Assembly: GCF_016916835.1 (NCBI RefSeq) | Contig: NZ_JAFFIX010000011.1 | Coordinates: forward strand, 62,001-126,000 | From: Actinacidiphila bryophytorum | GTDB lineage: Bacteria > Actinomycetota > Actinomycetes > Streptomycetales > Streptomycetaceae | Direction: 5' to 3' | Length of the DNA: 64,000 nucleotides | Part shown: positions 3,612-24,655 of the stretch, piece after piece | Numbering within the stretch: position 1 is the stretch's first letter | Layout of the letters: every line of letters starts with the position of its first letter | Made by a program: the position numbers and the translations under genes | Notes under the pieces: generated by a model | What the model saw: only the letters and a program-made list of their open reading frames with translations | Database searches by the model: none | Told to the model about the DNA's origin: nothing

Positions 3612-4616
3612 TCATCCGGACGGGCGGCGCGCACTTCCGCCGTCCTGGCCGCCGGGCAGGCCGGGTAACTCGCCCTGCACATCGTCCAGCCAGCCGTGCC
3701 GGGCGGCGTGCCACACCAGCTGGATACGGTTGTCGACCCCCGCCTCGCGCTGCATCGCCGCCACGTGGCGCTGCACGGTGCGCACCGCCACACCGAGCGA
3801 GCGGGCCATCGCCGCGTCCGTGCTGCCGCTCACCAGCATCGCCAGGATCCGCGAGCGCAGGGCGCTGCGCGGCTGCCGGTCGTCGGGGCGGCGCACCAGC
3901 GGCACACCGCCCGCCCACACCGCGTCGAACAGCGCGGTGAGCGTGTCCAGCAGGGGACTTGGCAGCACCACCAGCATCACCGGGTCGGCGTCCTGGTCCG
4001 CGGCCGGCGGCAGCAGGGCGACCTCGCGGTCGGCGATCCCCAGCCGGGCCGGCAGCCGGCCGACCACCCGGGCGGCGATCTGCGGGTCCCCCGGCGGCCC
4101 GAACGCCCCGGCCGCCTCGAGTCCCGCCCGCTCGAACACCACCCGCCGCCGTACGCCGCCGGGCAGCGGTTCGCGCGGGGCGACCGCGGGTCCCGGCACG
4201 AAGGAGGCGATCTCGCGGCGGGCCGAGCCGCGGAAGTCCTCCACCCGGCGGCGGATCGCCGCCGCACCCGCCACCACCTGCACGGCCTCCTCGGCCCTGT
4301 GGCCCTGGTGGACGCGCTGGTACTCCACGTCGAGGCGGTCGAGTAACTCCGCGCCGAGCCGCAGCTGCTCCTGTGCGCGCGACAGCAGCGGCCGGAAGCC
4401 GGCATGCGGCGGGACGGGATACCAGTTCCCGTCCCGCCCGCGCCGGGCCAGGCCGCGCGCCGCCAGCTCGCCGCACGCGGCCTGCCCCCGGTCCGCCGCC
4501 ACGCCCATCTGGCGGGCCAGTTCCGCGGGCGCCACGCCCCGGTTCGACACCAGGAGCGAATACGCCTGGTCGGCGTCCGGACTCAACCCCAGCGCCTCAA
4601 ACGGACGTTCGGTCAT
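3612..4616 (-). CDS. TrmB/LuxR-type helix-turn-helix transcriptional regulator
   Basis: A 334-residue regulator. The C-terminus carries a LuxR-like HTH (SRILAMLVSGSTDAAMARSL followed by GVAVRTVQRHVAAM). The N-terminus (about residues 8-70) resembles a TrmB-type winged helix (SLLVSNRGVAPAELARQMGV). The middle is an uncharacterised sensor-like region. The ATG at 4616 is chosen because conserved-looking sequence (TERPFEALGLSPD) starts there; the frame is open to 4844 but that part is low-complexity intergenic repeat, and no strong ribosome binding site is visible. It lies 168 bp upstream of the S53 peptidase on the same strand, so control of that protease is possible but not shown. Confidence 0.75.
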   Translation of the reverse strand: MTERPFEALGLSPDADQAYSLLVSNRGVAPAELARQMGVAADRGQAACGELAARGLARRGRDGNWYPVPPHAGFRPLLSRAQEQLRLGAELLDRLDVEYQRVHQGHRAEEAVQVVAGAAAIRRRVEDFRGSARREIASFVPGPAVAPREPLPGGVRRRVVFERAGLEAAGAFGPPGDPQIAARVVGRLPARLGIADREVALLPPAADQDADPVMLVVLPSPLLDTLTALFDAVWAGGVPLVRRPDDRQPRSALRSRILAMLVSGSTDAAMARSLGVAVRTVQRHVAAMQREAGVDNRIQLVWHAARHGWLDDVQGELPGLPGGQDGGSARRPSG

Positions 4617-5015
4617 GTCAGCGGACTCTAGCGTCCGGCGCCCCGCCGGACGCCCCGTTTCCCCGGACGACGCCCCCTCCGCGCCGGACGGCGCCCCCGG
4701 GAGGCGCTGGGGGTACCCCAGGCGAAGCTCTGGGGACGGACCTGCGCGCCCGCCCCCACGGGCCGTCGCGGGGCGACGGACCGCAACCACCCCAGGGGCG
4801 CGGGGAACTGCGCGACCAGCCCCCACCGGCCGGTGGTCCGGCACGGACCGGACAGCCCCCTTCGGTCGGTGACGACCCGCGCCCCGGTGGGGGCTCGGCG
4901 CGCAGTTCCCCGCGCCCCTGAGGGTTGCCCCCTTGCGCAGGGGGAGCCGCCCGAGCCGCCGGGGCCGGCGGACGCTCGCCCTCTGCGGAAGAGGGGCCGC
5001 CCTCCGCGCAGGAGG
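4617..5015. repeat. intergenic region with two inverted copies of a dispersed repeat and several hairpins
   Basis: No gene is supported in these 399 bp between two minus-strand genes. The region holds a forward copy (4794-4824) and an inverted copy (4889-4919) of the GCGGGGAACTGCGCG repeat found elsewhere in the window. It also holds a hairpin CCCCAG (4716-4721) with CTGGGG (4730-4735), and a hairpin CCCCCT (4928-4933) with AGGGGG (4939-4944). The last two could terminate the MFS gene that ends at 5016. The overlapping open frames here are products of the GC-rich repeats. Confidence 0.7.
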
Positions 5016-6710
5016 TCAGGTCAGGGAGGCCAGCTCCCGGTCGACGGCGGCCTGGTGGAGGGCGGCGTCCTCACGGGCTTTGCGGGGGCTCCAGCGCCCG
5101 GCCATCAGGAAGACGAAGGGCAGGAAGAGGACCTGGCCGCCGACGCAGATCCACCACCAGGTGCGCCACTGTGAGGGGCCGTCGTGCGCGGCCTTCTGGA
5201 CCTTCGTCCCGTACTTCTGCAGCACCGCCAGCTGCGGCCCGGCCTTCTGGACGGTCGCGAGGTCGGCCGGGCCGACCTCCTGGACGGCGCGGGCGGTGAC
5301 GTCGGCGGGCGCCTTGCCCGCCGGGTACTTGCCCAGCTCCGCGAAGATGTCCTGGTGGGCGCCGACGATCGCCAGCGCGGGCCCCGCCTGCGCCTGCGCC
5401 GCCGTGACCTGCGGCCCGTGGTCGACGAGCGGGGTCACCGAGGTGACGAGCACCGGGATGAAGGCCGCGGAGACCGCGACCACGATCCGTATCGTCCAGC
5501 CCCACACCGCCAGGCCCGTCGCCGTGGCGGCCGGGTTGTGCTTCTCGACCGTCTCGGTGAAGCCCGCCATCCACGGGCCGTAGGCCACCCCGCTGAAGAC
5601 GCCGATGCCGACGAAGAGCCAGGCGAAGGTGTAGTAGTCGGTGGTCGGGTGGGTCGCCCTGGTGGCGAAGACCGCCGTCATCACGATGGAGCCGACCGCC
5701 CCGACGACCATGAAGGGCTTGCGCACCTTGAGCCGGTCGGACAGCAGGCCGACCACGACCAGCGCGATGGCGTTGGCGGCCCAGTACCAGTTGGCGACCG
5801 CGTTGGCGCGCTGCTCGCTGTAGCCGTAGGTGGTGGCGAAGTAGACGACGAAGTTGCCGACGGCGGCGAAGTACAGCAGCAGGAAGAGGGCGATGGCCAG
5901 GCCGGAGCCCGCGATGTCCAGCCGCAGCATCTGCCGCCATTCGGCACGCCGGCCGGCCTGCGGGTCGATGCCCTTGGCTCGGGCCTCGACCAGGGCGCGG
6001 TCCCGCAGGGTGACCATGATCTGGTCGCGGAGCCGCGGGGACAGCTCGCGCAGGGCGACGATCGCCACGACGAAGACCACCAGGCCCGACAGGGCGGAGT
6101 AGCGCAGTTCGTCCTGCCAGCTGGAGGTGTCCAGGGTCTGGCTGGTGACGGTGGTGACGACCAGGCTGCCGACCACCGGCCCCATCGTCCAGGCGCCCAT
6201 CGCCGTGGCCCGGCCGAGCTGCGGTGAGAAGTCCCTGATCAGTGCGGGCGTGGCGACCAGCACGATGCCCTCGACGATGCTGACCAGTGCGAAGAGCACC
6301 AGGTAGACGGCCTTGCTGCCGGCGTTCGGCAGTCCGAAGTAGACCAGCAGCGAGGCGATCAGCAGGCCGTAGACCACCATGTTGGCCCGGCCCCATCGGT
6401 CGGCGAGCCCGGCGACGAGCGAGGCGAAGGCGCCGACGGCGTTGCCGATCACCGAGACCCACACGAAGTAGCGGTAGGTCATGTCGAAGTGGGTGATGAT
6501 CGACGTGGCGACCGCGTACTGGATGTAGAGCATGTAGTAGAGCACGACCGTGGTGACCACCACGATGGCCAGATACGCCATCCGCGGGCCGGTGGCCGGG
6601 TAGGCGGCCAGATCGCGGCGGTAGAGCCGCTGCAGCAGTGTGGGGGCGTCGCCACCCGCGGCCTGTGGTCCCGGTCTGTTGGCGTCGAACGACGTCGGTG
6701 TGGCGGACAT
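5016..6710 (-). CDS. MFS transporter, sugar-acid/metabolite type
   Basis: A 564-residue integral membrane protein with about 12 hydrophobic segments and a typical MFS loop after helices 2-3 (GLADRWGRAN). A second such loop after helix 8 reads LLSDRLKVRKP. A soluble insert of about 90 residues sits between the last helices (HGPQVTAAQAQAGPALAI onward), which is longer than usual. The ATG at 6710 follows CCAGGAGGAGCC, a strong ribosome binding site. A perfect 16-bp palindrome lies 62 bp upstream. Substrate is unknown; nothing next to it is a clear metabolic partner. Confidence 0.85.
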   Translation of the reverse strand: MSATPTSFDANRPGPQAAGGDAPTLLQRLYRRDLAAYPATGPRMAYLAIVVVTTVVLYYMLYIQYAVATSIITHFDMTYRYFVWVSVIGNAVGAFASLVAGLADRWGRANMVVYGLLIASLLVYFGLPNAGSKAVYLVLFALVSIVEGIVLVATPALIRDFSPQLGRATAMGAWTMGPVVGSLVVTTVTSQTLDTSSWQDELRYSALSGLVVFVVAIVALRELSPRLRDQIMVTLRDRALVEARAKGIDPQAGRRAEWRQMLRLDIAGSGLAIALFLLLYFAAVGNFVVYFATTYGYSEQRANAVANWYWAANAIALVVVGLLSDRLKVRKPFMVVGAVGSIVMTAVFATRATHPTTDYYTFAWLFVGIGVFSGVAYGPWMAGFTETVEKHNPAATATGLAVWGWTIRIVVAVSAAFIPVLVTSVTPLVDHGPQVTAAQAQAGPALAIVGAHQDIFAELGKYPAGKAPADVTARAVQEVGPADLATVQKAGPQLAVLQKYGTKVQKAAHDGPSQWRTWWWICVGGQVLFLPFVFLMAGRWSPRKAREDAALHQAAVDRELASLT

Positions 6711-6771
6711 GCGGCTCCTCCTGGAGGTACGGGAAAACCGGGTGGAGTGACGGAGTGTGGCCAGAGGCTAG

Positions 6772-6787
6772 TACCGACCGGTCGGTA
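6772..6787. promoter_or_regulatory. candidate TetR-type operator upstream of the MFS transporter
   Basis: Perfect 16-bp palindrome TACCGACCGGTCGGTA, with flanking CTAG on the left and CCTAG on the right. It lies 61 bp before the MFS start, where a repressor could block transcription. Size and symmetry suit a TetR-family dimer. No TetR gene is adjacent, so the regulator would be encoded elsewhere. Confidence 0.5.
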
Positions 6788-6821
6788 TGCCTAGGGGTCT
6801 GCACGATGTCCTTCACACGGC

Positions 6822-6856
6822 CGCCGGCGGACCCCCTGGAAGGGAGCCCGCCGGCG
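6822..6856 (-). terminator. hairpin downstream of the cellulase gene
   Basis: Inverted repeat CGCCGGCGG (6822-6830) and CCGCCGGCG (6848-6856) begins 29 bp after the GH5 stop codon, in transcription direction. No U-tract follows, as is common for Streptomyces terminators. Confidence 0.45.
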
Positions 6857-6884
6857 TCGTACCGCGGTGGAGATGGAGCAGCTG

Positions 6885-8651
<1,767 letters not shown>

Positions 8652-12902: not shown

Positions 12903-13547
12903 TCAGGTGGTGTCGAGAAGCTGCTCCTCCAACTGCGACCAGCCCTCCGGGATGTCGCCGGTCTCGTGCCAGCTGCGCCACTCGTCGAAGCCGGCCAGGT
13001 CACCCGCGGCGATCTCGGCGAGCAGGTCGCGGATCCAGCCGGCCTGCGCCTCGATCATGCGGGCCTTGTGGTCGGTCTCCAGCAGGAAGAGCCGGGGCAG
13101 CTCGTCGCCGAGTTTGGCCAGCACCCCGCGCAGGCCGGCGGCCTGGACTTCGAGAGCCGCGGCCCGCTCGGTGAGCAGCTCCACCGCCTCGTCCGGGTGC
13201 AGTGCCCCGATCAGCGACAGGCCGGCCTCGAAGGCCGGGTACTCCTGCGCCGGTACGGCGACCACGTCGGCGAGCCAGTCGTGCATCTCGACCCGGCCCT
13301 CGTCGGTGAGCCCGTACAGGGTGCGCTCGGGGCGGTTGCCCTGCCGCTGGACGTCGGCGACGGTCACGAAGCCGTGCTTCTCCAGGTTCTGGACCACGGT
13401 GTAGAGCGAGCCGTAGTTGATCTTGATGCTGTGTTCCTTGCCGCGCTGCCGCAGCACCCGGGCGATCTCGTAGGGGTGCATCGGGCGTTCGCTGAGCAGC
13501 ACCATGACCGCGAGGGCCAGCGGGTTGGACAGTTTGCGGCGCTTCAT
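12903..13547 (-). CDS. PadR-family transcriptional regulator
   Basis: A 214-residue regulator with the N-terminal PadR winged helix (LALAVMVLLSERPMHPYEIA, then SLYTVVQNLEKHGFV) and a C-terminal Vir_act_alpha_C-like helical dimerisation region. The ATG at 13547 follows GAGGGAG. It precedes the DrrAB-type exporter genes and probably represses them. Its upstream region contains three TATCGCG repeats that could be its operator; it faces the divergent APC permease. Confidence 0.88.
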   Translation of the reverse strand: MKRRKLSNPLALAVMVLLSERPMHPYEIARVLRQRGKEHSIKINYGSLYTVVQNLEKHGFVTVADVQRQGNRPERTLYGLTDEGRVEMHDWLADVVAVPAQEYPAFEAGLSLIGALHPDEAVELLTERAAALEVQAAGLRGVLAKLGDELPRLFLLETDHKARMIEAQAGWIRDLLAEIAAGDLAGFDEWRSWHETGDIPEGWSQLEEQLLDTT

Positions 13548-13694: not shown

Positions 13695-13771
13695 AGCCGG
13701 AACGCGCCCCGTGAGCACTTCGGCCCGCGCCCGACATGGCCGCGTCATGCCGGCGAAACAACGGCTCCCTA

Positions 13772-13793
13772 ATTTCTGTCGATCGACAGGAAT
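13772..13793. promoter_or_regulatory. operator palindrome upstream of the APC permease, paired with the one at 17595
   Basis: A 22-bp near-palindrome with arms ATTTCTGTCG and CGACAGGAAT around AT. Nine of ten arm positions pair, and the inner 14 bp are perfectly symmetric. The same sequence, including the preceding CCTA, recurs upstream of the DUF1989/carboxylase operon at 17595-17616. It lies 22 bp before the permease ATG. Most likely bound by the TetR-family protein encoded at 16870-17484. Confidence 0.75.
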
Positions 13794-13815
13794 ACCTGAC
13801 CCAGGGGGCCGGACC

Positions 13816-15318
13816 ATGACCGCCACCGCACCATCGGACGCCCGTTCACAACCGCCCGACCAGCACGGCCCCGAGGACACCGCGGGGCTCGCCGGCTTCG
13901 GCTACCGCCAGGAACTGCACCGCAGCCTCGGCCGCTACGCCTCCTTCGCGGCCGGCTTCTCCTTCATCTCGGTACTGACCACCGTCTTCCAGTTCTTCGC
14001 CTTCGGCTACTCCTTCGGCGGGCCGCGCTTCTTCTGGACCTGGCCCGCCGTCCTGCTCGGCCAGCTCCTCGTGGCCGCCTGCTTCGCCGAACTCGCCGCC
14101 CGCTACCCGATATCCGGCGCCATCTACCAGTGGTCCAGCCGGCTCAGCAACGCCGTCTTCGGCTGGTACGCCGGCTGGATCATGGTGCTCGGGCAGATCG
14201 TGGTCGTCGCGGCGGCGGCGCTCGCGCTGCAGGTCGTGCTGCCCGCCGTCTGGTCCGGCTTCCAGTTCGTCGGCACCGACACCTCGCCGGTGTCCTCCGA
14301 CGGCGCCGCCAACGCGGCCGTCCTCGGCATCGTGCTGCTCGTGCTCACCACCGCGGTGAACCTGCTCGACAACAAGGTCATGTCCCTGGTCAACCGGATC
14401 GGGGTGACCGCGGAGATCGCCGGCGCCGTCCTGATCGTCGTCCTGCTGCTCACCCACGCCGACCGCTCCCCCGCGGTCACCGTGCACACCGGGGGCGGCG
14501 GATCCGCCCTGCTGGTCGGCTCCTTCGCCGCCGCCTACGTCATGATCGGCTTCGACAGCGCGGGCGAGATGAGCGAGGAGACCCGGCATCCGCGGCGGGT
14601 CGCGCCGCGCACGATCCTCACCGCGCTCACCGCGGCCGGCGTCCTGGCCTCGCTGCTCGTGCTGGCCGCGCTGCTCGCCGCCCCCAGCCTCACCGACGGC
14701 CGGCTCGGCACCGACGGGCTCTCCTACGTCCTCACCAGCCGGCTCGGCAGCGGGCTCGGCCGCGCCCTGCTGTGCGACGTGGCCCTCGCGGTGGCGGTCG
14801 CCACGCTGGCCATCCAGACGTCGGCGACCCGGATGCTCTTCTCGATGGCCCGCGACCGCGCCCTGCCGTTGTCCCCCGCGCTCTCCCGCGTCTCCCCCCG
14901 CACCGGGCAGCCCGCGGTGCCCGCACTCGTCGTCGGCGTGCTCTCCGCCGCCCTGCTGCTCATCGCGTTCGCCTCACCCGAGGCGTGGCTCGCCATCGGC
15001 ACGACGTGCATCGTGATGCTCTACCTGGCCTACTCGATGGTGACCGGCCCCCTGCTGTGGCGCCGCCTGCGCTCCCCGCTGCCGCCCGCCCTCGACGAGT
15101 CCGGCGCACCCGTCTTCTCCCTGGGCCGCTGGGGCGTCCCGGTCAACGCCGCGGCCCTCCTCTACGGCCTCGCGATGACCGTCAACCTCGCCTGGCCGCG
15201 CTCCGCGGTCTACGACCCCTCGGGCACGCACTGGTACTTCCAGTGGTTCACCCTGCTCTTCCTGGCCGCCGCACTGGCCCTCGGCGCCGCCTGGCGTGCC
15301 GTCCGCCGCACCCGCTGA
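13816..15318 (+). CDS. APC-superfamily permease, likely the nitrogen-compound importer of the urea/guanidine carboxylase regulon
   Basis: A 500-residue membrane protein with about 12 hydrophobic helices. APC features include SFAAAYVMIGFDSAGEMSEE, the conserved helix 6/loop of amino acid permeases, and ARYPISGAIYQW in helix 2. The ATG at 13816 is preceded by CAGGGGG. Such permeases are repeatedly found with urea-carboxylase clusters (SEED name: urea carboxylase-related amino acid permease). Here it is 2.3 kb from the catabolic operon but carries almost the same 22-bp operator, so it is probably co-regulated and imports guanidine, urea or a related compound. Confidence 0.87.
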   Translation: MTATAPSDARSQPPDQHGPEDTAGLAGFGYRQELHRSLGRYASFAAGFSFISVLTTVFQFFAFGYSFGGPRFFWTWPAVLLGQLLVAACFAELAARYPISGAIYQWSSRLSNAVFGWYAGWIMVLGQIVVVAAAALALQVVLPAVWSGFQFVGTDTSPVSSDGAANAAVLGIVLLVLTTAVNLLDNKVMSLVNRIGVTAEIAGAVLIVVLLLTHADRSPAVTVHTGGGGSALLVGSFAAAYVMIGFDSAGEMSEETRHPRRVAPRTILTALTAAGVLASLLVLAALLAAPSLTDGRLGTDGLSYVLTSRLGSGLGRALLCDVALAVAVATLAIQTSATRMLFSMARDRALPLSPALSRVSPRTGQPAVPALVVGVLSAALLLIAFASPEAWLAIGTTCIVMLYLAYSMVTGPLLWRRLRSPLPPALDESGAPVFSLGRWGVPVNAAALLYGLAMTVNLAWPRSAVYDPSGTHWYFQWFTLLFLAAALALGAAWRAVRRTR

Positions 15319-15345
15319 CCCGCAGCGGGCGTGCCCCCGGCACCC

Positions 15346-15852
15346 TCACACGAGGTGGAGGGCGTGGAGGAGGCCGGGAGCCGACGCGACCAGGGTGAAC
15401 CTGATCGTGCGGCCGGTGAGGCAGGTGGCGCTGAAGACGGCCGCACTCATCGGCGTACGGGCTGCGTACGCGCTGGTGAGGAGCAATGGGGGCAGGCCGG
15501 TGACCGCGCTGGTGAAGAGGACGGCGGCGGCCTGCCGCGGGCGGTCGAGGCGGGCGGTCGCCGCGGTGGTCCAGCGTCTGAACCTGCCGGGCGGCGCCGG
15601 GGTCGCCGACCGCGACGCGCCTTCGGCCCGGGTGAGGCGTCCCCTGATCCATACCGAGCGCAAAGTGCCGCGCACGGCAAGGAAGACGATCAGTTCGCCC
15701 GCGGTCTGGCCGGCCCCGGCAACGGTGCCCACCAGCCAGGCGGCGTCACCTGTGGTGGTGACGACGGCGATCACGTAGGGCTCGACCGGCGTCACGGGGA
15801 GGACGGCCGAGAGCGCGCCGACCAGCAGCGTGGTGGCGTATCCGGCGATCAC
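15346..15852 (-). CDS. VTT/DedA-like small membrane protein
   Basis: A 168-residue protein with hydrophobic segments at both ends and a basic middle. The C-terminal segment reads CLTGRTIRFTLVASAPGL, resembling the GR-x-x-RF motif of the VTT (SNARE-associated/DedA) family. It is short for DedA proteins. The GTG start overlaps the stop of the upstream CDP-alcohol phosphatidyltransferase remnant (GTGA), which indicates a coupled operon. Function unknown; a lipid or membrane role is inferred from the family and neighbour. Confidence 0.65.
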   Translation of the reverse strand: MIAGYATTLLVGALSAVLPVTPVEPYVIAVVTTTGDAAWLVGTVAGAGQTAGELIVFLAVRGTLRSVWIRGRLTRAEGASRSATPAPPGRFRRWTTAATARLDRPRQAAAVLFTSAVTGLPPLLLTSAYAARTPMSAAVFSATCLTGRTIRFTLVASAPGLLHALHLV

Positions 15853-16213
15853 GGTGCGGCCGGGGCGGGCGGGTCGGGCAGGCGCAGCAGCGCCACGAGG
15901 GAGGCCAGCTTGACCGCGGTCACGGCGGCGGCCAGCAGGGTCGGGGCCAGCGGCGCCGTGCTCACCGTGATGAGCACGACCCGCCCACCCGGGTCTCCTG
16001 ACCGAGCCTCCGGGCCAGGAGCCCGTCGGGTATGTCCCCGGCCCAGTAGGTCAGGTAGGCCGCGACGAGCAGGGCGGTGCTCCTGGTGGTGATCGCGGTC
16101 GTGGCCAGGGAGACGGCGGCGGCGGTGCGTACCAGGGTGACGGCGTTGGGCACGTTGGCGACGGTGATCCCGCCGGTGCCGACGGGCGGGCGCGCGAGGC
16201 CGGCGGTGGTCAT
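15849..16213 (-). pseudogene. CDP-alcohol phosphatidyltransferase remnant with internal deletion and frameshift
   Basis: The N-terminal part (start ATG 16213, overlapping the upstream stop as ATGA) reads to a stop at 15962. It contains a CDP-alcohol phosphotransferase motif start (DIPDGLLARRLGQETRVG). The second half of the motif (two further Asp) is missing. In another frame the sequence continues from about 15990 as VVLITVSTAPLAPTLLAAAV and ends at a TGA (15849) that overlaps the next gene's GTG. The whole locus has room for about 121 residues, against roughly 180-200 for the family. I infer a deletion of about 70-80 codons that also changed frame, so the enzyme is probably dead. Confidence 0.65.
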
Positions 16214-16401
16214 TCCGCGTCCTGGAGGATGCGTTGGACCTGCGTGAGCCGCTGGTTCATGTCGGCCAGCTGCGCCTGGACGTCGCTGAGCTTCTGGTTC
16301 GTCTCCTCCTGCGCGTCGGTGCCGCGCGCGGCGACCTCGCGGTTGCGGACGTCGTCGGCGGAACGCAGCCGGGTCGCCACGAACCAGATCACTGCGATCA
16401 C
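16210..16401 (-). CDS. small membrane-anchored coiled-coil protein, start uncertain
   Basis: At least 63 residues: an N-terminal hydrophobic segment (IAVIWFVATRL) and a heptad-rich helix (NQKLSDVQAQLADMNQRLTQ). The only standard start in frame is GTG at 16401, which cuts the membrane segment short. The in-frame sequence upstream (DIAATAALVTAGAIV) continues the helix but has no ATG, GTG or TTG before the ArsR gene stop. Either a non-standard start is used or the start was lost. It ends in an ATGA overlap with the next gene. Confidence 0.55.
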   Translation of the reverse strand: MIAVIWFVATRLRSADDVRNREVAARGTDAQEETNQKLSDVQAQLADMNQRLTQVQRILQDAE

Positions 16402-16445
16402 GATGGCCCCGGCCGTGACGAGGGCGGCGGTTGCTGCGATGTCCG

Positions 16446-16796
16446 TTACTCGGATCCTTTCGGTGCGGCGCCGTGGTCGGCCGCGGGGTCGGTCAGGGTC
16501 GCCGCTGCGGTGGCGATCGATCCCGGGGTGAGGTGGAGCACGAAGGGTGCCGCCTCGTAGAACTTCAAGGCCTTGCCCTCGTCGGACAGTTCGAGCTGCG
16601 CGGTGACGAGCCCGGCCTTCTCCAGCTTGCGGAGGTGCACCTGGAGCAGTGCGCGGCTGATGCCGAGGTGCCGGGCCAGCTGCGATACGTACGCGCGTCC
16701 CTCGACGAGGGCGGCGAGCACCCGCATCCGGTGCGGGCTGGCGAGCGTGGACAGCACCTGAAGCAGCTCGTCTCCGGTCAGATCCGAGGTCTCCAT
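16446..16796 (-). CDS. ArsR-family winged-helix regulator
   Basis: A 116-residue regulator with an ArsR-type HTH (LASPHRMRVLAALVEGRAYV, then LGISRALLQVHLRKLEKAGL). It lacks obvious paired Cys for metal sensing. ATG 16796 follows AGGGGGA closely; an upstream ATG at 16811 lies inside an inverted repeat and lacks a ribosome binding site. It heads the small operon of coiled-coil protein, CDP-alcohol phosphatidyltransferase remnant and VTT protein, and probably autoregulates through the repeat at 16809-16834. Confidence 0.82.
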   Translation of the reverse strand: METSDLTGDELLQVLSTLASPHRMRVLAALVEGRAYVSQLARHLGISRALLQVHLRKLEKAGLVTAQLELSDEGKALKFYEAAPFVLHLTPGSIATAAATLTDPAADHGAAPKGSE

Positions 16797-16808
16797 ATTC
16801 CCCCTATG

Positions 16809-16834
16809 CACATGCTAAGAAATGTTGGCATGTG
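16809..16834. promoter_or_regulatory. inverted repeat upstream of the ArsR gene
   Basis: Perfect 7-bp arms CACATGC (16809-16815) and GCATGTG (16828-16834) with a 12-bp A/T-rich spacer lie 13 bp before the ArsR ATG. Size and position suit an autoregulatory ArsR operator. Confidence 0.55.
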
Positions 16835-16869
16835 TAGCGCGAGTCTCAAAGGTGCCGGTCATGCGGGGT

Positions 16870-17484
16870 TCAGCGGGCGCCGGTGATACGGAGGGCAGCG
16901 TCGGCCGTGGCCGTGGGGAGGGACGCGGCGGTGGGGCGGGGGATGAGGATGACGGCCTCGATCAGCGCGAAGACCAGGTCCGTGCGGACGGCCAGCTCGT
17001 CGGGAGGCAGGCCGGCGGCGGCGTCGGTTGCGGCCAGCAGGGCGGCGTAGGCGGACTTCAAACCGGCCCTCGCGTCGCGGAAGGACGTGAAGCGGTCGGA
17101 CCGCACCTCGGGCAGGAGGTAGAGGACGCCGAGGTTGTGCGGCTCGGAGCACAGCAGCGCGACGTCGGCCCTGCACAGCTCCCACAACCGCCGCTCGGCG
17201 GGCCTGCCGGTGTCGGCGAGGAGCTTCCCGGCGAGCGCGAGGGACGGCGTGACCGTGCTCTCCAGCAGTTCGGCGAGCAGGTCCTCCTTGCCGCCGACGT
17301 AGTGGTACATCGAGGCCTGCCGCATGCCGGCGCGTTCCGCGACCGCCCGGGTCGTGGTCGCGGTGTAGCCGCGGGTGGTGAAGAGCTCCGCGGCGGCGGC
17401 CAGGAGTTCCTGACGCGGGCTCATCCCGGTGTCGGGCCGCTGCTGCGCCCTGGGCCGCCCGACGCGCCGTCCGCTCGTACTCAT
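16870..17484 (-). CDS. TetR-family repressor of the urea/guanidine carboxylase regulon
   Basis: A 204-residue TetR protein. The N-terminal HTH is at about residues 25-70 (AAELFTTRGYTATTTRAVAE, then RAGMRQASMYHYVGGKEDLL). The C-terminal ligand-binding domain is helical (WELCRADVALLCSEPHNLGV). ATG 17484 is the first start that gives the usual basic leader (GRRVGRPRAQQRP). It is divergent from the DUF1989/carboxylase operon, and the perfect 22-bp palindrome at 17595-17616 lies between them. A matching site precedes the APC permease. The ligand is probably a pathway substrate or intermediate. Confidence 0.87.
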   Translation of the reverse strand: MSTSGRRVGRPRAQQRPDTGMSPRQELLAAAAELFTTRGYTATTTRAVAERAGMRQASMYHYVGGKEDLLAELLESTVTPSLALAGKLLADTGRPAERRLWELCRADVALLCSEPHNLGVLYLLPEVRSDRFTSFRDARAGLKSAYAALLAATDAAAGLPPDELAVRTDLVFALIEAVILIPRPTAASLPTATADAALRITGAR

Positions 17485-17594
17485 CCGGCGATCGTCGCAC
17501 AGCGCGGGACCGCGCCCACGCGGGGCGGCGCCGGTGAGCGGCCGGTAACCGGCGCGCAACACCCGGGCAACCGCCTGGAATCGGCCGCCGCCTA

Positions 17595-17616
17595 ATTTCT
17601 GTCGCACGACAGAAAT
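17595..17616. promoter_or_regulatory. operator palindrome of the urea/guanidine carboxylase operon
   Basis: Perfect 22-bp palindrome: arms ATTTCTGTCG and CGACAGAAAT around CA. It ends immediately before the GGGAGG ribosome binding site of the first gene and lies 110 bp from the divergent TetR gene start. With only about 140 bp between the genes, it probably blocks initiation in one or both directions. There is no room between it and the start codon for a guanidine riboswitch. Confidence 0.85.
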
Positions 17617-17628
17617 GGGAGGTGCACG

Positions 17629-18426
17629 GTGGCGACAGGGACGACGTACGGCGCCCGGGACCATGCCAGGGCGCAGGACGGCAGGCGCGCGGCCGCGATG
17701 CCGCTGGTGCCCGCACCGGACGGGCTGGTGTGGGCCGAGACGGTCGCGGGCGGCGGCTACACCCACAAGGTGCTGGCCCGCGGCACGGAACTGCGGCTCG
17801 CCGACCCCACCGGCACCGCGTGCGCGCACCTGCTGCTGTTCGCCGAGGGCCGCCCGTGGGAGCGGCTGAACGTCGCGGACACGGTGAAGGTGCAGTGGAA
17901 CGCCTACCTGGGCGCGGGACGGCTGCTGCTGTCGGACCAGGGCAGGGTGCTCGCCTCGCTGGTCGCGGACACCAGCGGCCGGCACGACACGCTGTGCGGT
18001 ACGTCGTCGGCGGCGCGCAACACCACGCGCTACGGGGACGGTTCCGCGCACGGCGGCTCCCCCGCGGGGCGCGAGCTGTTCCTGCTGGCCGCGGCCAAGC
18101 AGGGGCTGGGGCCGCGCGACCTGCCGCCGTCGCTGTCCTTCTTCCAGGGCGTGCGCGTCGAGCCGGACGGCGCCCTGGAGTTCATCGGCTCCGCAGGCCC
18201 CGGCACCGCGGTGACGCTGCGGGCCGAGCAGCCGCTGACCGTACTGCTGGCGAACGTGCCGCACCCGCTGGACCCGCGGCCCGCCTATGTGTGCGGGCCG
18301 CTGGAGGTACGCGCCAAGGCCGGTGCGCCGACCGGGCCGCAGGACCCCCTGTGGGACGCCACACCCGAAGGCCGCAGGGCGTTCCTGAACACCGCGGAGC
18401 ACCTGGCCGCCAGGGGGCTGCGATGA
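17629..18426 (+). CDS. DUF1989 urea carboxylase-associated protein 2; putative carboxyguanidine deiminase subunit
   Basis: A 265-residue DUF1989 protein. The core has GGYTHKVLARGTELRLADPT, the SGRHDTLCGTSS motif near residue 120, and RNTTRYGDGS. These His/Cys/Asp residues match the predicted metal-binding region of the family. GTG 17629 follows GGGAGG. Work on guanidine utilisation assigns the paired DUF1989 proteins to carboxyguanidine deiminase (CgdAB), which releases ammonia and gives allophanate; older annotation calls them urea carboxylase-associated. First gene of the operon; its stop overlaps the next start (ATGA). Confidence 0.83.
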   Translation: MATGTTYGARDHARAQDGRRAAAMPLVPAPDGLVWAETVAGGGYTHKVLARGTELRLADPTGTACAHLLLFAEGRPWERLNVADTVKVQWNAYLGAGRLLLSDQGRVLASLVADTSGRHDTLCGTSSAARNTTRYGDGSAHGGSPAGRELFLLAAAKQGLGPRDLPPSLSFFQGVRVEPDGALEFIGSAGPGTAVTLRAEQPLTVLLANVPHPLDPRPAYVCGPLEVRAKAGAPTGPQDPLWDATPEGRRAFLNTAEHLAARGLR

Positions 18427-19067
18427 CCGCCGTGACCGTACCCGCCCGCGCGCCCTGGTCGGCGGTGATACCGGCGGGCGGCCTGCTCACCGTCACCGAC
18501 CTGCACGGCAACCAGGCCGTCGACTTCCTGGCCTACGACGCCCACGACACCGCCGTCCGCTACAGCGCGCCCGACACGATCCAGGCGCAGGGCAACATCT
18601 TCCTCACCACCGGCAGCGTGCTGCTGTCCACCGAGCACACCCCGCTGATGACGGTCGTCGCGGACGGCTGCGGCGGGCACGACACGATCGCCGGCGCGTG
18701 CTCGAAGGAGTCCAACACCCTGCGCTACGGCCACCACACGTGGTCGCAGCACGCCTGCGTGGAGAACTTCCTCGCCGAGGGCGCCCGTTGGGGGCTCGGC
18801 AAGCGCGACCTGGTCAGCAACGTCAACTGGTACATGAACGTGCCCGTCGAGGACGACGGCACCCTCGGCATCGTGGACGGCAGGTCGGCACCCGGCCTCG
18901 AAGTGGTGCTGCGCGCCGAGACCGACGTGCTGGTGCTGGTCTCCAACTGCCCGCAGATCAACAACCCCTGCAACGGCTTCGACCCGACTCCCGTCCGCAT
19001 GACGGTCACCGGCCCTCAGCCGCCGGAAGCACCCGGAGGCACCGCGGCGGCGGAGGTCCGCGGATGA
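18423..19067 (+). CDS. DUF1989 urea carboxylase-associated protein 1; putative carboxyguanidine deiminase subunit
   Basis: A 214-residue DUF1989 protein, paralogous to its upstream neighbour. It shows DLHGNQAVDFLAYD, GGHDTIAGACSKESNTLRYG (residues about 79-98), and VSNCPQINNPCNGFDPTPV near the C-terminus, which are family-typical. It starts at ATG 18423 overlapping the previous stop and ends in an ATGA overlap with the carboxylase. The pair presumably forms a hetero-oligomeric deiminase acting on the carboxylated product. Cytoplasmic; no signal peptide. Confidence 0.85.
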   Translation: MTAVTVPARAPWSAVIPAGGLLTVTDLHGNQAVDFLAYDAHDTAVRYSAPDTIQAQGNIFLTTGSVLLSTEHTPLMTVVADGCGGHDTIAGACSKESNTLRYGHHTWSQHACVENFLAEGARWGLGKRDLVSNVNWYMNVPVEDDGTLGIVDGRSAPGLEVVLRAETDVLVLVSNCPQINNPCNGFDPTPVRMTVTGPQPPEAPGGTAAAEVRG

Positions 19068-22000
19068 CCTTCGACACGCTGCTGGTCGCCAACCGGGGCG
19101 AGATCGCCGCCCGGATCATCCGCACCGCCCGCCGCATGGGCCTGCGCACCGTCGCGGTCTTCTCCGACCCCGACCGCGGCGCCCCGCACGTCCACCTCGC
19201 CGACACCGCCGTCCGGTTGGGACCCGCGCCGGCCGCGTCCAGCTACCTGGACGTCGGCGCGGTCCTCGCCGCCGCCGCCACGACCGGTGCGGGCGCGGTC
19301 CACCCGGGCTACGGATTCCTCTCGGAGGACGCGGACTTCGCCCGCCGGTGCGAGGCCGCGGGCCTGGCCTTCGTCGGCCCGCAGCCGCAGCACCTGGACG
19401 TCTTCGGCGCCAAGCACACCGCACGGGCCGCCGCCGAGGCGGCCGGTGTGCCGCTGCTGCCCGGCACCGGACTGCTGCCCGACCTGGACGCGGCACTGGC
19501 CGCCGCGGACCGGCTCGGCTATCCGGTGATGCTCAAGGCCACCGGCGGCGGTGGCGGCATCGGCATGCGCGCCTGCCACTCGGCGGGTGAACTGACCGCC
19601 GCCTGGGAGCCGGTACAGCGCGCGGCAGCCGCCGGCTTCTCCTCCGCCGGGGTCTTCCTCGAACGCCTCGTGGAGCGTGCCCGGCATGTCGAGGTGCAGG
19701 TCTTCGGCGACGGCCGCGGCAAGGTCGCCGTGCTCGGCGACCGCGACTGCTCGCTCCAGCGCCGCCACCAGAAGGTGCTCGAAGAGGCCCCCGCCCCCGG
19801 CCTGCCCGCCGCCGTACGCCGCCGGCTGCACGACAGCGCACGGCAGTTGTGCTCCTCGGTCGGCTACCGCTCGGCGGGCACCGTGGAGTTCGTCTACGAC
19901 GCCGAGCGCGCCGAGGCCTACTTCCTGGAGGTCAACACCCGGCTGCAGGTCGAACACCCGGTCACCGAGGAGACCTACGGCGTCGACCTGGTCGAGTGGA
20001 TGCTGCGGCTCGCCCAGGACGGCACCGTCCCCGACGAGCCGCCCCCGCCCTCCGGGCACGCCGTCGAGGCGCGGATCTACGCCGAGGACCCGGCGCGCGG
20101 GCACCGGCCGAGCGCCGGGGTGCTCACCCGGGTCGCCTTTCCCCCCGGCGTGCGCGTCGACACCTGGGTCGAGACCGGCACCGAGGTCACCACCTCCTAC
20201 GACCCGATGCTCGCCAAGGTCGTCGCACACGGCGCCGACCGCGACACGGCGCTCGCCGCACTCGCCGACGCACTGGCCGCCACCCGCATCGACGGCATCG
20301 AGACCAACCTCGGGCTGCTGCGGGCCGCCCTCGGCAACCCCGACCTGCGGGCCGCCACCCACAGCACCGCGACCCTCGACGGCGTCACGGACGGCTCCCG
20401 GCGGATCGACGTGGTGCGCGCCGGCACGATGACCACCGTCCAGGACTGGCCCGGCCGCACCGGCCTGTGGCACGTCGGGGTGCCGCCCTGCGGGCCGATG
20501 GACGACCTGTCCTTCCGGCTCGGCAACGAGGCGCTGGGCAACGGCGAAGGCGCCGCCGGGCTCGAATGCACCTTGCAGGGACCGGCGTTGCGCTTCAGCC
20601 ACGCCACCACGGTCTGCGTCACCGGCGCCCCCGCACCGGTCACCGTCGACGGGCTGCCGGTGCCGCAGTGGGAGCCGGTGACCGTGCCGGCCGGCGCGGT
20701 CCTCGACGTCGGGGCGCCGCAGGAGGCCGGCTTGCGCACGTACGTCCTGCTGGCCGGCGGCCTCGACCTGCCCCGATTCCTCGGCAGCGCCGCCACCTTC
20801 ACCCTCGGCAGGTTCGGCGGGCACGGCGGGCGGGCGCTGCGCGCGACCGACGTCCTGCACGGCGGCGGCACCGCCGACGGGCGGCCCGTACCGCCCGCGC
20901 GGCGCCCCGCGATCGGCACGCAGTGGGCGATCGGCGCGGTCGAAGGGCCGCACGCGGCACCGGAGTTCTTCACCGAGGACGACATCAGGGACTTCTACGC
21001 GGCCTCCTGGAGCGTCCACTTCAACTCGGCCCGCACCGGGGTACGCCTCGTCGGCCCCAAACCGCGCTGGGCGCGCGGCGACGGCGGCGAAGCCGGCCTG
21101 CACCCCTCCAACATCCACGACACGCCCTACTCCGTCGGCGCCGTCGACTTCACCGGCGACATGCCGGTGCTGCTCGGCCCCGACGGCCCGTCCCTCGGCG
21201 GCTTCGTCTGCCCGGCCACCGTCGTCACAGGGCAGCGCTGGAAACTGGGCCAGCTGCGGCCCGGCGACACCGTGCGCTTCGTACCCGTCACCGAGGACGC
21301 GGCCGCCGCGCTGCGCACCTCCCCCGCCACCACCCCCGTGCCCTCCCGGCCCGTGCTCGGCGACGGCGGGGTCCTCGACCGCGCCGCCGCCACCCCCGCG
21401 CGCCCCGCCGTGACCTACCGCCGCAGCGGCGACGACAACCTGCTCGTCGAGTACGGGCCGATGCAGCTCGACCTCGCCCTGCGGATGCGGGTCCACGCAC
21501 TCGCCGAACACCTCGCCGCCCGGCGACTGCCCGGGGTCGTCGACCTCACGCCCGGCATCCGCTCGCTGCAGATCCACGTCGACCCGGCGCAGATGCCGAC
21601 CGCCAAACTCCTCGACCTGGTCCGCGAGGCCGAGGACGCGCTGCCGCCCACCGACCAGCTCGTCGTGCCCAGCCGCACCGTCCACCTCCCGCTGTCCTGG
21701 GACGACCCGGCCACCCGGGAGGCCATCTCCCGCTACATGGCCGGCGTCCGCGACGACGCGCCTTGGTGCCCGTGGAACATCGAGTTCATCCGCCGCATCA
21801 ACGGGCTCGACGCCGTCGAGGACGTCCACCGCACCGTCTTCGACGCGGAATACCTCGTCCTCGGCCTCGGCGACGTCTACCTCGGCGCGCCCGTCGCCAC
21901 CCCGCTCGACCCGCGGCACCGGCTCGTCACCACCAAGTACAACCCGGCCCGCACCTGGACCGCGGAGAACTCCGTCGGCATCGGCGGGGCCTACCTGTGC

Positions 22001-22609
22001 GTCTACGGCATGGAGGGGCCGGGCGGCTACCAGTTCGTGGGCCGCACCGTCCAGGTCTGGAACGCCAGGACCGACCCACGGCAGCCGTGGCTGCTGCGCT
22101 TCTTCGACCGGATCAGGTGGTACCCGGTCGGCGCGGAGGAACTCCTCGACCTGCGGGCCGACATGGCCGCGGGGCGGCTCGCGCTGCGGGTGGAGGACGG
22201 GGAGTTCGCGCTCGCCGCGCACCAGCGCTTCCTCGCGGAGAACGCGGGGCCGATCGCGGAATTTCGAACGCGGCAGGCTGCCGCGTTCGCCGCGGAGCGG
22301 CGGGCGTGGGAGGAGGCCGGCGAATTCGCCCGGGCCGAGGCGGTGGCCGCGCCTTCCGCGGCGCCCACGGCGGTGCCCGTGCCCGACGGGGGGTGCGCCG
22401 TGGAGGCGGAGTTCGCCGCCGGGGTCTGGCGGGTCGCCGTCAGGCCGGGCGACCAGGTCGTCGAGGGCCAGCCGCTGCTCGTCCTGGAGGCCATGAAGAT
22501 GGAGTCCCCGGTCCTGGCCCCCATGACAGGCCGCGTCACGTCCCTCCACGTCACCCCCGGCGACCAGGTCACCCCCGGCTCGCCCCTGCTGACCCTGGCC
22601 CCGGTGTGA
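19064..22609 (+). CDS. biotin-dependent urea/guanidine carboxylase
   Basis: A 1181-residue multidomain carboxylase. The biotin carboxylase part (about 1-450) has ANRGEIAARI, ATGGGGGIGM and EVNTRLQVEHPVTE. Carboxyltransferase halves follow (KipA/AHS2-like about 455-770, KipI/AHS1-like about 780-990), then a C-terminal biotinyl domain with Lys1145 in EAMKMES. It carboxylates the substrate with ATP and bicarbonate. The substrate-loop motif VEYGPMQLDLAL has Asp803. As I recall, urea carboxylases have Asn at the substrate-contacting position and guanidine carboxylases Asp, but the exact alignment is uncertain. With two DUF1989 partners, guanidine is the more likely substrate. ATG 19064 follows GGAGG. 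Confidence 0.9.
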   Translation: MTFDTLLVANRGEIAARIIRTARRMGLRTVAVFSDPDRGAPHVHLADTAVRLGPAPAASSYLDVGAVLAAAATTGAGAVHPGYGFLSEDADFARRCEAAGLAFVGPQPQHLDVFGAKHTARAAAEAAGVPLLPGTGLLPDLDAALAAADRLGYPVMLKATGGGGGIGMRACHSAGELTAAWEPVQRAAAAGFSSAGVFLERLVERARHVEVQVFGDGRGKVAVLGDRDCSLQRRHQKVLEEAPAPGLPAAVRRRLHDSARQLCSSVGYRSAGTVEFVYDAERAEAYFLEVNTRLQVEHPVTEETYGVDLVEWMLRLAQDGTVPDEPPPPSGHAVEARIYAEDPARGHRPSAGVLTRVAFPPGVRVDTWVETGTEVTTSYDPMLAKVVAHGADRDTALAALADALAATRIDGIETNLGLLRAALGNPDLRAATHSTATLDGVTDGSRRIDVVRAGTMTTVQDWPGRTGLWHVGVPPCGPMDDLSFRLGNEALGNGEGAAGLECTLQGPALRFSHATTVCVTGAPAPVTVDGLPVPQWEPVTVPAGAVLDVGAPQEAGLRTYVLLAGGLDLPRFLGSAATFTLGRFGGHGGRALRATDVLHGGGTADGRPVPPARRPAIGTQWAIGAVEGPHAAPEFFTEDDIRDFYAASWSVHFNSARTGVRLVGPKPRWARGDGGEAGLHPSNIHDTPYSVGAVDFTGDMPVLLGPDGPSLGGFVCPATVVTGQRWKLGQLRPGDTVRFVPVTEDAAAALRTSPATTPVPSRPVLGDGGVLDRAAATPARPAVTYRRSGDDNLLVEYGPMQLDLALRMRVHALAEHLAARRLPGVVDLTPGIRSLQIHVDPAQMPTAKLLDLVREAEDALPPTDQLVVPSRTVHLPLSWDDPATREAISRYMAGVRDDAPWCPWNIEFIRRINGLDAVEDVHRTVFDAEYLVLGLGDVYLGAPVATPLDPRHRLVTTKYNPARTWTAENSVGIGGAYLCVYGMEGPGGYQFVGRTVQVWNARTDPRQPWLLRFFDRIRWYPVGAEELLDLRADMAAGRLALRVEDGEFALAAHQRFLAENAGPIAEFRTRQAAAFAAERRAWEEAGEFARAEAVAAPSAAPTAVPVPDGGCAVEAEFAAGVWRVAVRPGDQVVEGQPLLVLEAMKMESPVLAPMTGRVTSLHVTPGDQVTPGSPLLTLAPV

Positions 22610-22990
22610 CGGCCCCTTGCGGTGGGCTTTCGCCTTTCCCTCGGCGGGAGGGTGCGCAGGTGATTGCCACTTGCGGTGGGCTCGCACCTTTCGGTGCGTG
22701 GGAGCTTGTCGCGCAGTTCCCCGCGCCCCTGAAAAGCGCTCACCCTCCTGCGCAGAGGGCGCCGCCTGAAAGCGCCGGCTCTGCGCACAGAGGGCACCAC
22801 CCAGGGGCGCGGGGAACTGCGCGACAAGCCCCCACCGGCCGGAAGGCGAAAGCCCACCGCAAGGGGCAGGACCTGAAGGGGCGCGGGGAACTGCGCGCCC
22901 AGCCCGCACGGGCGGAAAGAAGGCAACGCACCGCAAGGGGCAGGGCCTGGGTCACGCCCACCGGGCGGAAAGAAGGCAACGCCACAGCAT
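22610..22990. repeat. dense intergenic repeat array between carboxylase and allophanate hydrolase genes
   Basis: No gene is supported. The GCGGGGAACTGCGCG element occurs inverted at 22701-22730 and forward at 22803-22833 and 22877-22905. A perfect 23-bp inverted repeat pairs 22614-22636 with 22843-22865. A 20-bp direct repeat GGGCGGAAAGAAGGCAACGC occurs at 22910-22929 and 22963-22982, and ACCGCAAGGGGCAGG at 22856-22870 and 22930-22944. The structure can fold extensively and may attenuate read-through into the allophanate hydrolase gene. Confidence 0.8.
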
Positions 22991-23020
22991 GTGGCGACAA
23001 GCGGCGAGGAGGGCCAGGCA

Positions 23021-24655
23021 GTGGGGCAGGCGGGGCGCAGGGTGGGCGGGGCGTACGCGGAGATCGCCCGGGCCGGGAGGCCGGACGTGTGGATCGGGTT
23101 GCGCCCGCAAGAGGAGGTCGCCGCCGAGGCGGCTGAGGTCGATGCAAGGCTCGCCGCAGGCGAACCGCTCCCGTTGGCGGGAAGCCTCCTCGCCGTGAAG
23201 GGCAACATCGACGTCCACGGCCTGCCGACGACGGCCGGCTGCCCGTCGTACGCGTACGAACCGCAGGCGGACGCCCCCGCGGTGGCGGCACTGCGCGCCG
23301 CGGGCGCGATCGTGCTGGGGACGACGAACATGGACCAGTTCGCGACCGGCCTGGTCGGCACCAGGAGCCCTTACGGCGCGGTGCGCAGCGCCCTGGCCGC
23401 GGACCGCGTGGCCGGCGGCTCCAGTTCGGGTTCCGCTGTCGCCGTGGCGCTGGGCTTCGTGGACATCGCGCTGGGCACGGACACCGCGGGCTCGGGCCGC
23501 GTCCCCGCGGCCTTCAACGGCATCGTGGGGCTCAAGCCGACCCGCGGCCTGGTCTCGACGCGGGGTGTGGTTCCGGCGTGCGCGAGCCTGGACTGCGTGA
23601 GCGTCTTCGCCCGTACCCTCGAAGCGGCCCGCAGGGCACTGGCGCTGCTGAGAGCAGCGCGCCCGGTGCCGCCGCGCCGCCCGGGGCCGTGGCGGGTGGC
23701 GGTGCCGGCGACGGCGCAGCTCGGCGAGCTGGACGACGGCTGGGCGGCGGCGTTCGAGCGGGCGAAGGGGCGCCTGGCCGGCGCGGGCGCGCAGCTGCGG
23801 ACCATCGACCTGGCGCCCTTCACGCAGGCGGCGTCGCTGCTCTACGACGGCGCCTTCGTCGCGGAGCGCTACACCGCGGTGGGCGCCTTCGTCGAGCGCG
23901 GCACTGCGGATCTCGACCCGACGGTCGCGGGGATCATCCGTGCGGCCCGGAACCTGCCGGCGCACCGGCTGTTCGCGGACCGCGAGCGGCTGGCGGCGCT
24001 GCGGGAGCGTGCGGCGGCGGAGCTGGCGGACGCGGACGCGCTGCTGCTGCCGACGACACCCGGGCATCCGACGCTCGCGGAGGTGGCGGCCGACCCCGTC
24101 GGCGCGAACACCCGGCTGGGCCGTTTCACGAACTCGGCGAACCTGCTGGACCTGTGCGCGGTCGCGGTGCCGGCGGGCGAGGTGGACGGGCGGCCCTTCG
24201 GGGTGATGCTGCTGGGGGCGGCGGGCAGCGACGAGCACGTCGCGGAGGTGGCCGCGCTGCTGGAGCCGCCGCTGCGGCTCGCGGTGGTGGGGGCGCACCT
24301 GTCGGGGCAGCCGCTCAACCCGCAACTGCTGGCGCTGGGCGCGCGGCTGGCCGCGGAGACCACGACCGCGCCGGACTACCGGCTGTACGCGCTGGACACG
24401 GTGCCGCCCAAGCCGGGCCTGGTGCGGGTGCCGGCCGGGGGCGCCGCGGTGGAGGCGGAGGTGTGGGAGCTGGCGCCGGCGGCGCTGGGCGCCCTGCTGG
24501 CGGCGCTGCCCCGGCCGATGGCCCTGGGCCGGGTGGCGCTGCGGGACGGCGAGGAGGTGACGGGCTTCCTGTGCGAGCCGGCGGCGGTGGCCGGTGCGCG
24601 GGACATCACGGAGTTCGGCGGCTGGCGCGGCTACCTGGGCAGGAGCGGCACCTGA
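23021..24655 (+). CDS. atzF: allophanate hydrolase (AtzF type)
   Basis: A 544-residue amidase-signature enzyme that converts allophanate to ammonia and CO2, the last step of the pathway. The catalytic triad is visible: Lys60 in AVKGNID, the cis-Ser in GGSSSGS, and the nucleophile Ser158 in DTAGSGRVPA. The C-terminal allophanate hydrolase domain follows (about 430-544, ending EFGGWRGYLG). GTG 23021 is chosen because GAGGAGG lies eight bases upstream; an in-frame GTG at 22991 adds ten residues but has no clear ribosome binding site. It is 411 bp from the carboxylase gene, a larger gap than the overlapping junctions upstream. Confidence 0.92.
   Translation: MGQAGRRVGGAYAEIARAGRPDVWIGLRPQEEVAAEAAEVDARLAAGEPLPLAGSLLAVKGNIDVHGLPTTAGCPSYAYEPQADAPAVAALRAAGAIVLGTTNMDQFATGLVGTRSPYGAVRSALAADRVAGGSSSGSAVAVALGFVDIALGTDTAGSGRVPAAFNGIVGLKPTRGLVSTRGVVPACASLDCVSVFARTLEAARRALALLRAARPVPPRRPGPWRVAVPATAQLGELDDGWAAAFERAKGRLAGAGAQLRTIDLAPFTQAASLLYDGAFVAERYTAVGAFVERGTADLDPTVAGIIRAARNLPAHRLFADRERLAALRERAAAELADADALLLPTTPGHPTLAEVAADPVGANTRLGRFTNSANLLDLCAVAVPAGEVDGRPFGVMLLGAAGSDEHVAEVAALLEPPLRLAVVGAHLSGQPLNPQLLALGARLAAETTTAPDYRLYALDTVPPKPGLVRVPAGGAAVEAEVWELAPAALGALLAALPRPMALGRVALRDGEEVTGFLCEPAAVAGARDITEFGGWRGYLGRSGT

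Follow-up and report, generated by a model that had tools for sequence, protein, structure and literature searches.

The window, a 64,000-nucleotide stretch of the Actinacidiphila bryophytorum genome (assembly GCF_016916835.1, contig NZ_JAFFIX010000011.1, positions 62,001 to 126,000), carries genes for a transporter, for what appears to be a route of guanidine breakdown and, between them, for a TetR-family repressor. Two nearly identical 22-bp palindromes precede the transporter gene and the degradation operon. The arrangement is very probably best explained as an AmtR regulon of an Actinacidiphila-like streptomycete that serves guanidine uptake and degradation, with probable activation by GlnR. 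The features concerned are given by window position.

13711-13759 (+): predicted GlnR-like array before the permease operator; best half-sites GACAT at 13733, GTCAT at 13744 and GAAAC at 13755
13770-13775 (+): candidate -10 element TAATTT with conserved CCTA, over the left edge of the permease operator; putative promoter role
13772-13793 (+): AmtR-type operator of the permease, a 22-bp palindrome with one arm mismatch (G at operator position 19)
13816-15318 (+): APC permease, probable guanidine/organocation importer, TIGR03428-like, below the cut-off
16870-17484 (-): amtR, TetR-family repressor of 204 amino acids, divergent from the operon
17534-17582 (+): predicted GlnR-like array before the operon operator, five half-sites in 11-bp steps (GTGAG, GTAAC, GCAAC, GCAAC, GAATC)
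17593-17598 (+): candidate -10 element TAATTT with conserved CCTA, over the left edge of the operon operator; putative promoter role
17595-17616 (+): AmtR-type operator of the guanidine operon, a 22-bp palindrome with perfect arms
17629-18426 (+): UAAP1 (DUF1989), probable carboxyguanidine deiminase subunit, over the TIGR03425 cut-off
18423-19067 (+): UAAP2 (DUF1989), second subunit, over the TIGR03424 cut-off
19064-22609 (+): biotin-dependent guanidine/urea carboxylase, over the TIGR02712 cut-off, guanidine-type by Asp695
22991-24655 (+): allophanate hydrolase AtzF, over its profile cut-off

The palindromes had been reported at 13772 and 17595 in a first-pass annotation of the same DNA. Both are in place, the permease copy with its single arm mismatch, and the CCTA that the annotation saw ahead of the palindrome is present at both copies. 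Allowing up to three mismatches, the palindrome was matched twice in the window and never in 100 shuffles. At the same tolerance, the whole genome of 8,050,835 bases (8.05 Mb, 96 contigs) contains the same two palindromes only, with no match to a reversed control, so that the earlier remark that the motif occurs nowhere else can be extended to the entire genome. From operator to start codon the distance is 12 bp at UAAP1 and 22 bp at the permease.

The TetR gene described earlier as divergent from the second palindrome was confirmed at 16870-17484 on the minus strand, its ATG standing 110 bp from the operon operator. Judged by its sequence, this regulator is AmtR, since its closest solved relatives are AmtR chains. 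A PDB sequence search with the window protein returned six best matches with E values from 5e-39 to 7e-26, followed by the next TetR protein at 1e-11. Three of the six (5e57, 5mqq and 6gy3) carry the AmtR name; the others (5dxz, 5dy0 and 5dy1) are labelled as TetR family, and we take them to be AmtR as well. Presumably, 5e57 is the AmtR of Mycobacterium smegmatis and the other five are from Corynebacterium glutamicum. None of the listed NCBIfam models scored over its cut-off with the window protein, which carries the RQAS-x-Y recognition helix of AmtR. Among regulator loci in named genomes, 10 of 13 are highly identical, all from Actinacidiphila or Streptomyces. The palindromes also contain the CTGTC...GACAG core expected of a 22-bp AmtR operator. 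The consensus for Streptomyces avermitilis and four other actinobacteria, as quoted in a passage of PMC8864220 from Chen et al. 2013, is TAtCTGTCa-n2-cGACAGATAT; the window operators agree with it in the core and differ in the outermost letters.

Conservation of the site was followed in 297 family genomes, with AmtR accepted at E<=1e-25, UAAP1 over its profile cut-off and the site searched as TTTCTGTCRNNYGACAGAAA with up to two mismatches; locus-level counts cover 100 of 101 listed regions, the UAAP1 locus of genome G144 being left out (G and L numbers are handles for genomes and loci). AmtR was found in 94 genomes and over-cut-off UAAP1 in 73, with both present in 71. At least two sites occur in 66 of these 71, and the remaining five (G139, G191, G240, G242 and G248) have a variant operator, a permease-first gene order and, encoded at the far end, a distant AmtR. 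The variant, ATACCTGTCRnnYGACAGGTAT, precedes the permease; the palindrome search found it in four of the five, and at locus L180 the ATACC form, which there has an additional arm mismatch, was recognised by eye. Neither operon genome without AmtR (G035 and G061) gave a site match. The reversed control pattern matched in three genomes. Among fetched loci, the site stands ahead of UAAP1 in 66 of 73, the exceptions being the five variant and two riboswitch genomes, and ahead of the permease in 61 of 71; of the ten permease misses, six belong to variant or riboswitch loci, and in the other four the permease start was not covered by the sequence fetched. In five genomes (G100, G144, G152, G156 and G168) the operon retains its sites with amtR more than 1 Mb away on the contig or on another contig, which speaks for action in trans.

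Genomes without an over-cut-off UAAP1 rarely carry the site (any match at up to two mismatches in 20 of 224). Two have at least two matches: G182, in which UAAP1 is split, and G167, with two 2-mismatch matches. In 17 of the 20 no match is better than 2 mismatches, and G007 has a single match with 1; the matches in these 18 genomes are probably chance or another regulator's palindrome. Perfect matches were limited to G182 and G119. In the latter, a broken permease, joined to what is left of AtzF, follows the site, as if the operon had decayed. Outside the family, a palindrome with a CTGTC core (9 or more of the 10 core letters matching) lies near the start of UAAP1, the permease or amtR in 10 of 12 loci from operon genomes with AmtR, and near a start in none of six loci without AmtR, where L251 has a weak match away from the start.

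These counts also bear on whether the palindromes bind some other protein, with the adjacency of amtR a coincidence. An obvious candidate is the PadR-type regulator encoded at 12903-13547, divergent from the permease, a relative of which occurs in 20 of 73 fetched UAAP1 loci, the window among them. However, 46 of the 66 UAAP1-site loci yielded no PadR relative, where some fetched stretches may stop short, and all 66 over-cut-off operon genomes with at least two sites carry AmtR. Together with the agreement between the palindrome and the published AmtR core, as far as it is quoted, this makes another regulator, such as PadR, very improbable.

Upstream of each operator, half-sites at -61, -50, -39, -28 and -17 from the operator start form conserved columns with an 11-bp period. 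Across 66 UAAP1 promoters the in-phase half-site score is 0.82, against 0.11-0.44 in the other ten phases; across 56 permease promoters it is 0.77, against 0.14-0.42, with five of the 61 promoters (L151, L152, L155, L156 and L182) omitted as their upstream region differs. In step and letters the array is similar to the consensus for GlnR that a passage of PMC10704036 gives (a-b boxes gTnAc-n6-GaAAc in 11-bp steps), with half-sites departing from it by at least one base. This suggests a composite promoter of GlnR array and AmtR operator at both sites, which is new as far as our searches reach; these did not address the array separately.

The same geometry argues against reading the palindromes as hairpins in leader RNA. 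Their arms could pair in RNA and in many loci they lie near a start codon. Yet the distance from palindrome to start (with starts extrapolated) ranges from below 10 to over 200 bp, the constant spacing is to the upstream DNA array and not to the gene, the -10-like TAATTT overlaps the palindrome, and an Rfam scan gave no match at the palindromes. An RNA hairpin is thus hardly credible, and the palindromes are best regarded as DNA operators. In the proposed mechanism, AmtR would bind the 22-bp palindrome over the -10 and start region of the two promoters and would repress the permease gene (13816) and the UAAP1-UAAP2-carboxylase(-AtzF) genes. GlnR would probably bind the upstream array and activate both promoters in nitrogen limitation. 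The products would import guanidine and convert it via carboxyguanidine and allophanate to ammonia.

Several points weigh against this reading. Of the 94 genomes with AmtR, 23 lack an over-cut-off UAAP1, and a site match is absent from 18 of them; some AmtRs would therefore act on other genes or be relics. G119, with its perfect site, is among the 23. At the class level, the AmtR loci L256 and L257 have no palindrome at the threshold used. The array was first noticed in the window and its phase was then tested on a set that includes the window, and GlnR binding is proposed from consensus match and spacing. Finally, a 381-bp gap (22610-22990), with GC-rich repeats of the type GGGGCGCGGGGAACTGCGCG seen by eye, separates the carboxylase gene from that of AtzF, which may have its own promoter.

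One further line of evidence, covariation between operator and recognition helix, was considered and set aside; it is suggestive, but it tracks phylogeny and single half-sites break it. The helix RQASLYYHF accompanies operators that have C at position 4 of each half (L181-L184, L261, L262 and L263), and in other AmtRs H or N replaces the second Y. Position 19 breaks the pattern: UAAP1 operators have A there without exception (66 of 66), and 43 of 61 permease operators have G, equivalent to C in the opposite half, mostly with YHY-type AmtRs. The C. glutamicum AmtR is likewise YYHF and yet has a CTAT core.

The substrate is indicated by the enzymes. CgdA and CgdB are DUF1989 proteins, and guanidine carboxylases are defined by Asp at positions 1330 and 1584 of the Kluyveromyces lactis enzyme, according to passages of PMC11410670. 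The window carboxylase has Asp at both, Asp695 aligning with position 1330. Across 71 carboxylase loci, Asp occupies position 1584 in all 71 and position 1330 in 68; the exceptions at 1330 are L158, with Asn, and L186 and L187, with Met. The window also has the two DUF1989 subunits and the allophanate hydrolase expected for the guanidine pathway, all over their cut-offs. The annotation's view that the DUF1989 pair, the carboxylase and AtzF form a guanidine-to-allophanate route is therefore supported, because the carboxylase has both guanidine-type Asp residues. The APC permease scores 616.5 bits on TIGR03428 (permease of the urea carboxylase system), under the cut-off of 740.45.

Urea, or urea derived from ureides, would be the alternative substrate. 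The carboxylase model bears the urea carboxylase name, the M. smegmatis literature terms the pathway one of urea, and in the relative L158 the specificity position is occupied by Asn. In two relatives an extra site precedes an operon of the NCS1 permease/cytosine-deaminase type, in one of which (G009) the product of an agmatinase-family gene could yield urea. In view of the Asp residues at 1330 and 1584 in the window, of Asp at 1330 in 68 of 71 loci and of both DUF1989 subunits scoring over their cut-offs, a system for urea is improbable, and guanidine is preferred.

The relatives just mentioned, G009 and G013, bear the operon and have two additional sites each. One of these, with an in-phase array (0.83), lies ahead of two genes, the first for an NCS1 permease, the second for a protein that is of the cytosine-deaminase type and deacetylase-like in its second half. 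The agmatinase-family gene follows them in G009.

L217 near 6962 and L218 near 3211: extra AmtR-type operator with GlnR-like array; genes in L218 at 3619-5052, 5052-7316 and 7365-8384 (+)

AmtR of C. glutamicum controls crnT and codA for creatinine, and the extra site in G009 and G013 may therefore mark a comparable branch for guanidino compounds. The other additional site, an AmtR-type palindrome (L216 near 7042, L219 near 6880), lies between genes for an XRE-cupin-like regulator and an ATZ/TRZ-type amidohydrolase, with allantoicase alongside; no upstream array was found there, reading towards the amidohydrolase or the opposite way. Separately, a different, TTACTGTCAAATGACAGTAA-like palindrome occurs in seven g14 genomes (G098, G111, G125, G180, G188, G190 and G202). 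In G098 (L230 near 2882) it precedes a gene that resembles, by eye, a membrane transporter, and it is probably another regulator's operator.

The link of AmtR to permease, carboxylase and amidase genes was already published in 2013, and the arrangement is largely known. Chen et al. reportedly found direct control by AmtRsav of sav_6697-6700 and sav_6709. The proposal in the first-pass annotation that a TetR repressor joins the remote permease to the operon thus stands as very probable, with a single TetR-family repressor for both, and what falls away is its novelty, the regulator being the known AmtR. According to passages of PMC4222082, AmtR is listed together with a permease, urea carboxylase, amidase and two unknown reading frames for ten actinobacteria. 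In S. avermitilis, AmtRsav (sav6701) has the same gene set as the window, with carboxylase sav6698, amidase sav6697 and permease sav6709; amtR is likewise divergent from the operon and the permease lies apart (PMC4222082, in part). The 22-bp site has the same CTGTC-n4-GACAG type of core, with outer arms of TAT/ATAT in the quoted consensus against ATTT/AAAT in the window (Chen et al. 2013, as quoted in PMC8864220). Those passages on S. avermitilis mention neither guanidine as substrate nor a GlnR-like array.

The closest solved AmtR is presumably that of M. smegmatis (5e57; msmeg_4300, with genes msmeg_2184-2189). There, amtR does not adjoin the genes, the pathway is described as urea metabolism and an antisense RNA to amtR has been proposed (PMC4617892), all unlike the window. 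In passages of PMC4222082, AmtR and GlnR both bind upstream of msmeg_2184, the homologous permease gene, and the transcript of that gene rises when the part of amtR for DNA binding is deleted. The same source states that amtR deletion raises expression of the homologous permease and carboxylase genes and that glnR deletion abolishes nitrogen-dependent expression. The homologous repressor of C. glutamicum has the same RQAS recognition helix as the window protein, and its box, CTAT-N6-ATAG, the same spacing as the window operator (PMC8864220, in part). It differs in being a global nitrogen regulator of at least 35 genes.

The annotation had further proposed that the TetR repressor does the job done elsewhere by guanidine riboswitches. 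No guanidine-I riboswitch (RF00442) was found in the window or, under strict filters, in its genome; the search for guanidine-II and -IV riboswitches covered the window. In the two operon genomes of the family that lack AmtR, G035 (58.5 bits, gathering score 63) and G061 (64.8 bits), a guanidine-I riboswitch lies just upstream of a permease-first operon, and at the class level G311, G377 and G317 also have an operon-linked one. In the match lists, a linked riboswitch accompanies none of 83 operon genomes with AmtR against four of seven without (G035, G061, G311 and G377), in counts obtained under strict filters, with a p-value that treats related genomes as independent and with L249, below the UAAP1 cut-off, outside them.

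The riboswitch-linked actinobacterial operons have the same functional set, two DUF1989 proteins and a carboxylase, with a permease in four of five (L186, L187, L248 and L249; none was found in L247). Unlike the window, they have an RNA in the place of AmtR and no palindrome near the start. The carboxylases of all five loci, about 46-50% identical to that of the window, form a distinct clade with Met at 1330, to which L252, with neither AmtR nor riboswitch, also belongs. A promoter swap between AmtR and guanidine-I riboswitch was rejected as proof of guanidine sensing: regulator and enzyme clade are confounded, because all examined riboswitch-linked loci have this separate carboxylase clade. 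The pattern thus links two lineages and is no simple exchange of regulators at the same genes. With a different carboxylase clade under the riboswitch, and no small-molecule effector of AmtR known according to a passage of PMC8864220, the idea of a protein doing the riboswitch's job stays conjectural.

Guanidine riboswitches also occur away from the operon. The genome of the window itself contains the following pair.

G000:C77:300434-300497 (L246 1501-1564) (-): guanidine-III riboswitch match, 41 bits, gathering score 36
L246 1147-1464 (-): gene for a SugE/Gdx-like SMR exporter, directly behind the guanidine-III match

The exporter gene scores 117.7 bits on the SugE model, against a cut-off of 126. 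This organism thus probably encounters guanidine and senses it, via RNA, for export. As far as our searches reach, the coexistence of an AmtR regulon with a guanidine-III riboswitch for export is new. G009 and G013 have AmtR plus a guanidine-I riboswitch, the latter elsewhere and not linked to the operon. Over its gathering score, it lies upstream of a gene of the histidine/aromatic ammonia-lyase family.

L224 (G013): riboswitch at about 4052-4175 (-); ammonia-lyase family gene 2191-3684 (-), under the HutH cut-off
L225 (G009): riboswitch at about 4103-4217 (+); ammonia-lyase family gene 4587-6080 (+)

Another RNA element in the window is a Streptomyces-metH RNA (RF03076, 88 bits) at 62566-62695 (-).

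Which signal would release AmtR from its operators can be addressed with less confidence. Tentatively, the leading candidate is a compound of the pathway, guanidine and carboxyguanidine taken together, ahead of an adenylylated P-II protein as effector, which seems less likely. According to the passages available, AmtR has no identified small-molecule effector, derepression in C. glutamicum is proposed to come from adenylylated GlnK (PMC8864220), and urea and amino acids were tried on the M. smegmatis AmtR without effect (PMC4222082). A literature search for AmtR with guanidine returned, by titles and abstracts, insect studies only. The conserved acidic residues D107, E126 and E176 of the C-terminal part were tried as a ligand signature; they are conserved in AmtRs without the operon too and are therefore uninformative on the ligand.

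AmtR might report only general nitrogen status via P-II (GlnK), making the operon a part of the nitrogen-starvation response. The GlnK proposal for C. glutamicum and the lack of a known small-molecule effector favour this (PMC8864220, in part), as do two P-II genes in the genome of the window and a GlnR-like array that points to nitrogen control. AmtR has two sites in this genome, against the broad regulon of C. glutamicum, and general nitrogen sensing is on balance doubtful. More speculative, and rather unlikely in its entirety, is that streptomycete AmtR is a guanidine- or carboxyguanidine-responsive factor, the protein analogue of the guanidine riboswitches, in a division of labour within one cell, with an RNA sensor for export and a GlnR-gated protein sensor for catabolism.

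In summary, a TetR regulator and two palindromes that looked like orphans can now be placed in a published regulator family. As far as our searches reach, the re-reading of the AmtR "urea" regulon as a guanidine regulon is new. It makes guanidine an obvious candidate effector of AmtR, beside the urea and amino acids already tried, and renders the question testable. At the composite promoters of GlnR-like array and AmtR operator, nitrogen status and substrate signal could be separated.

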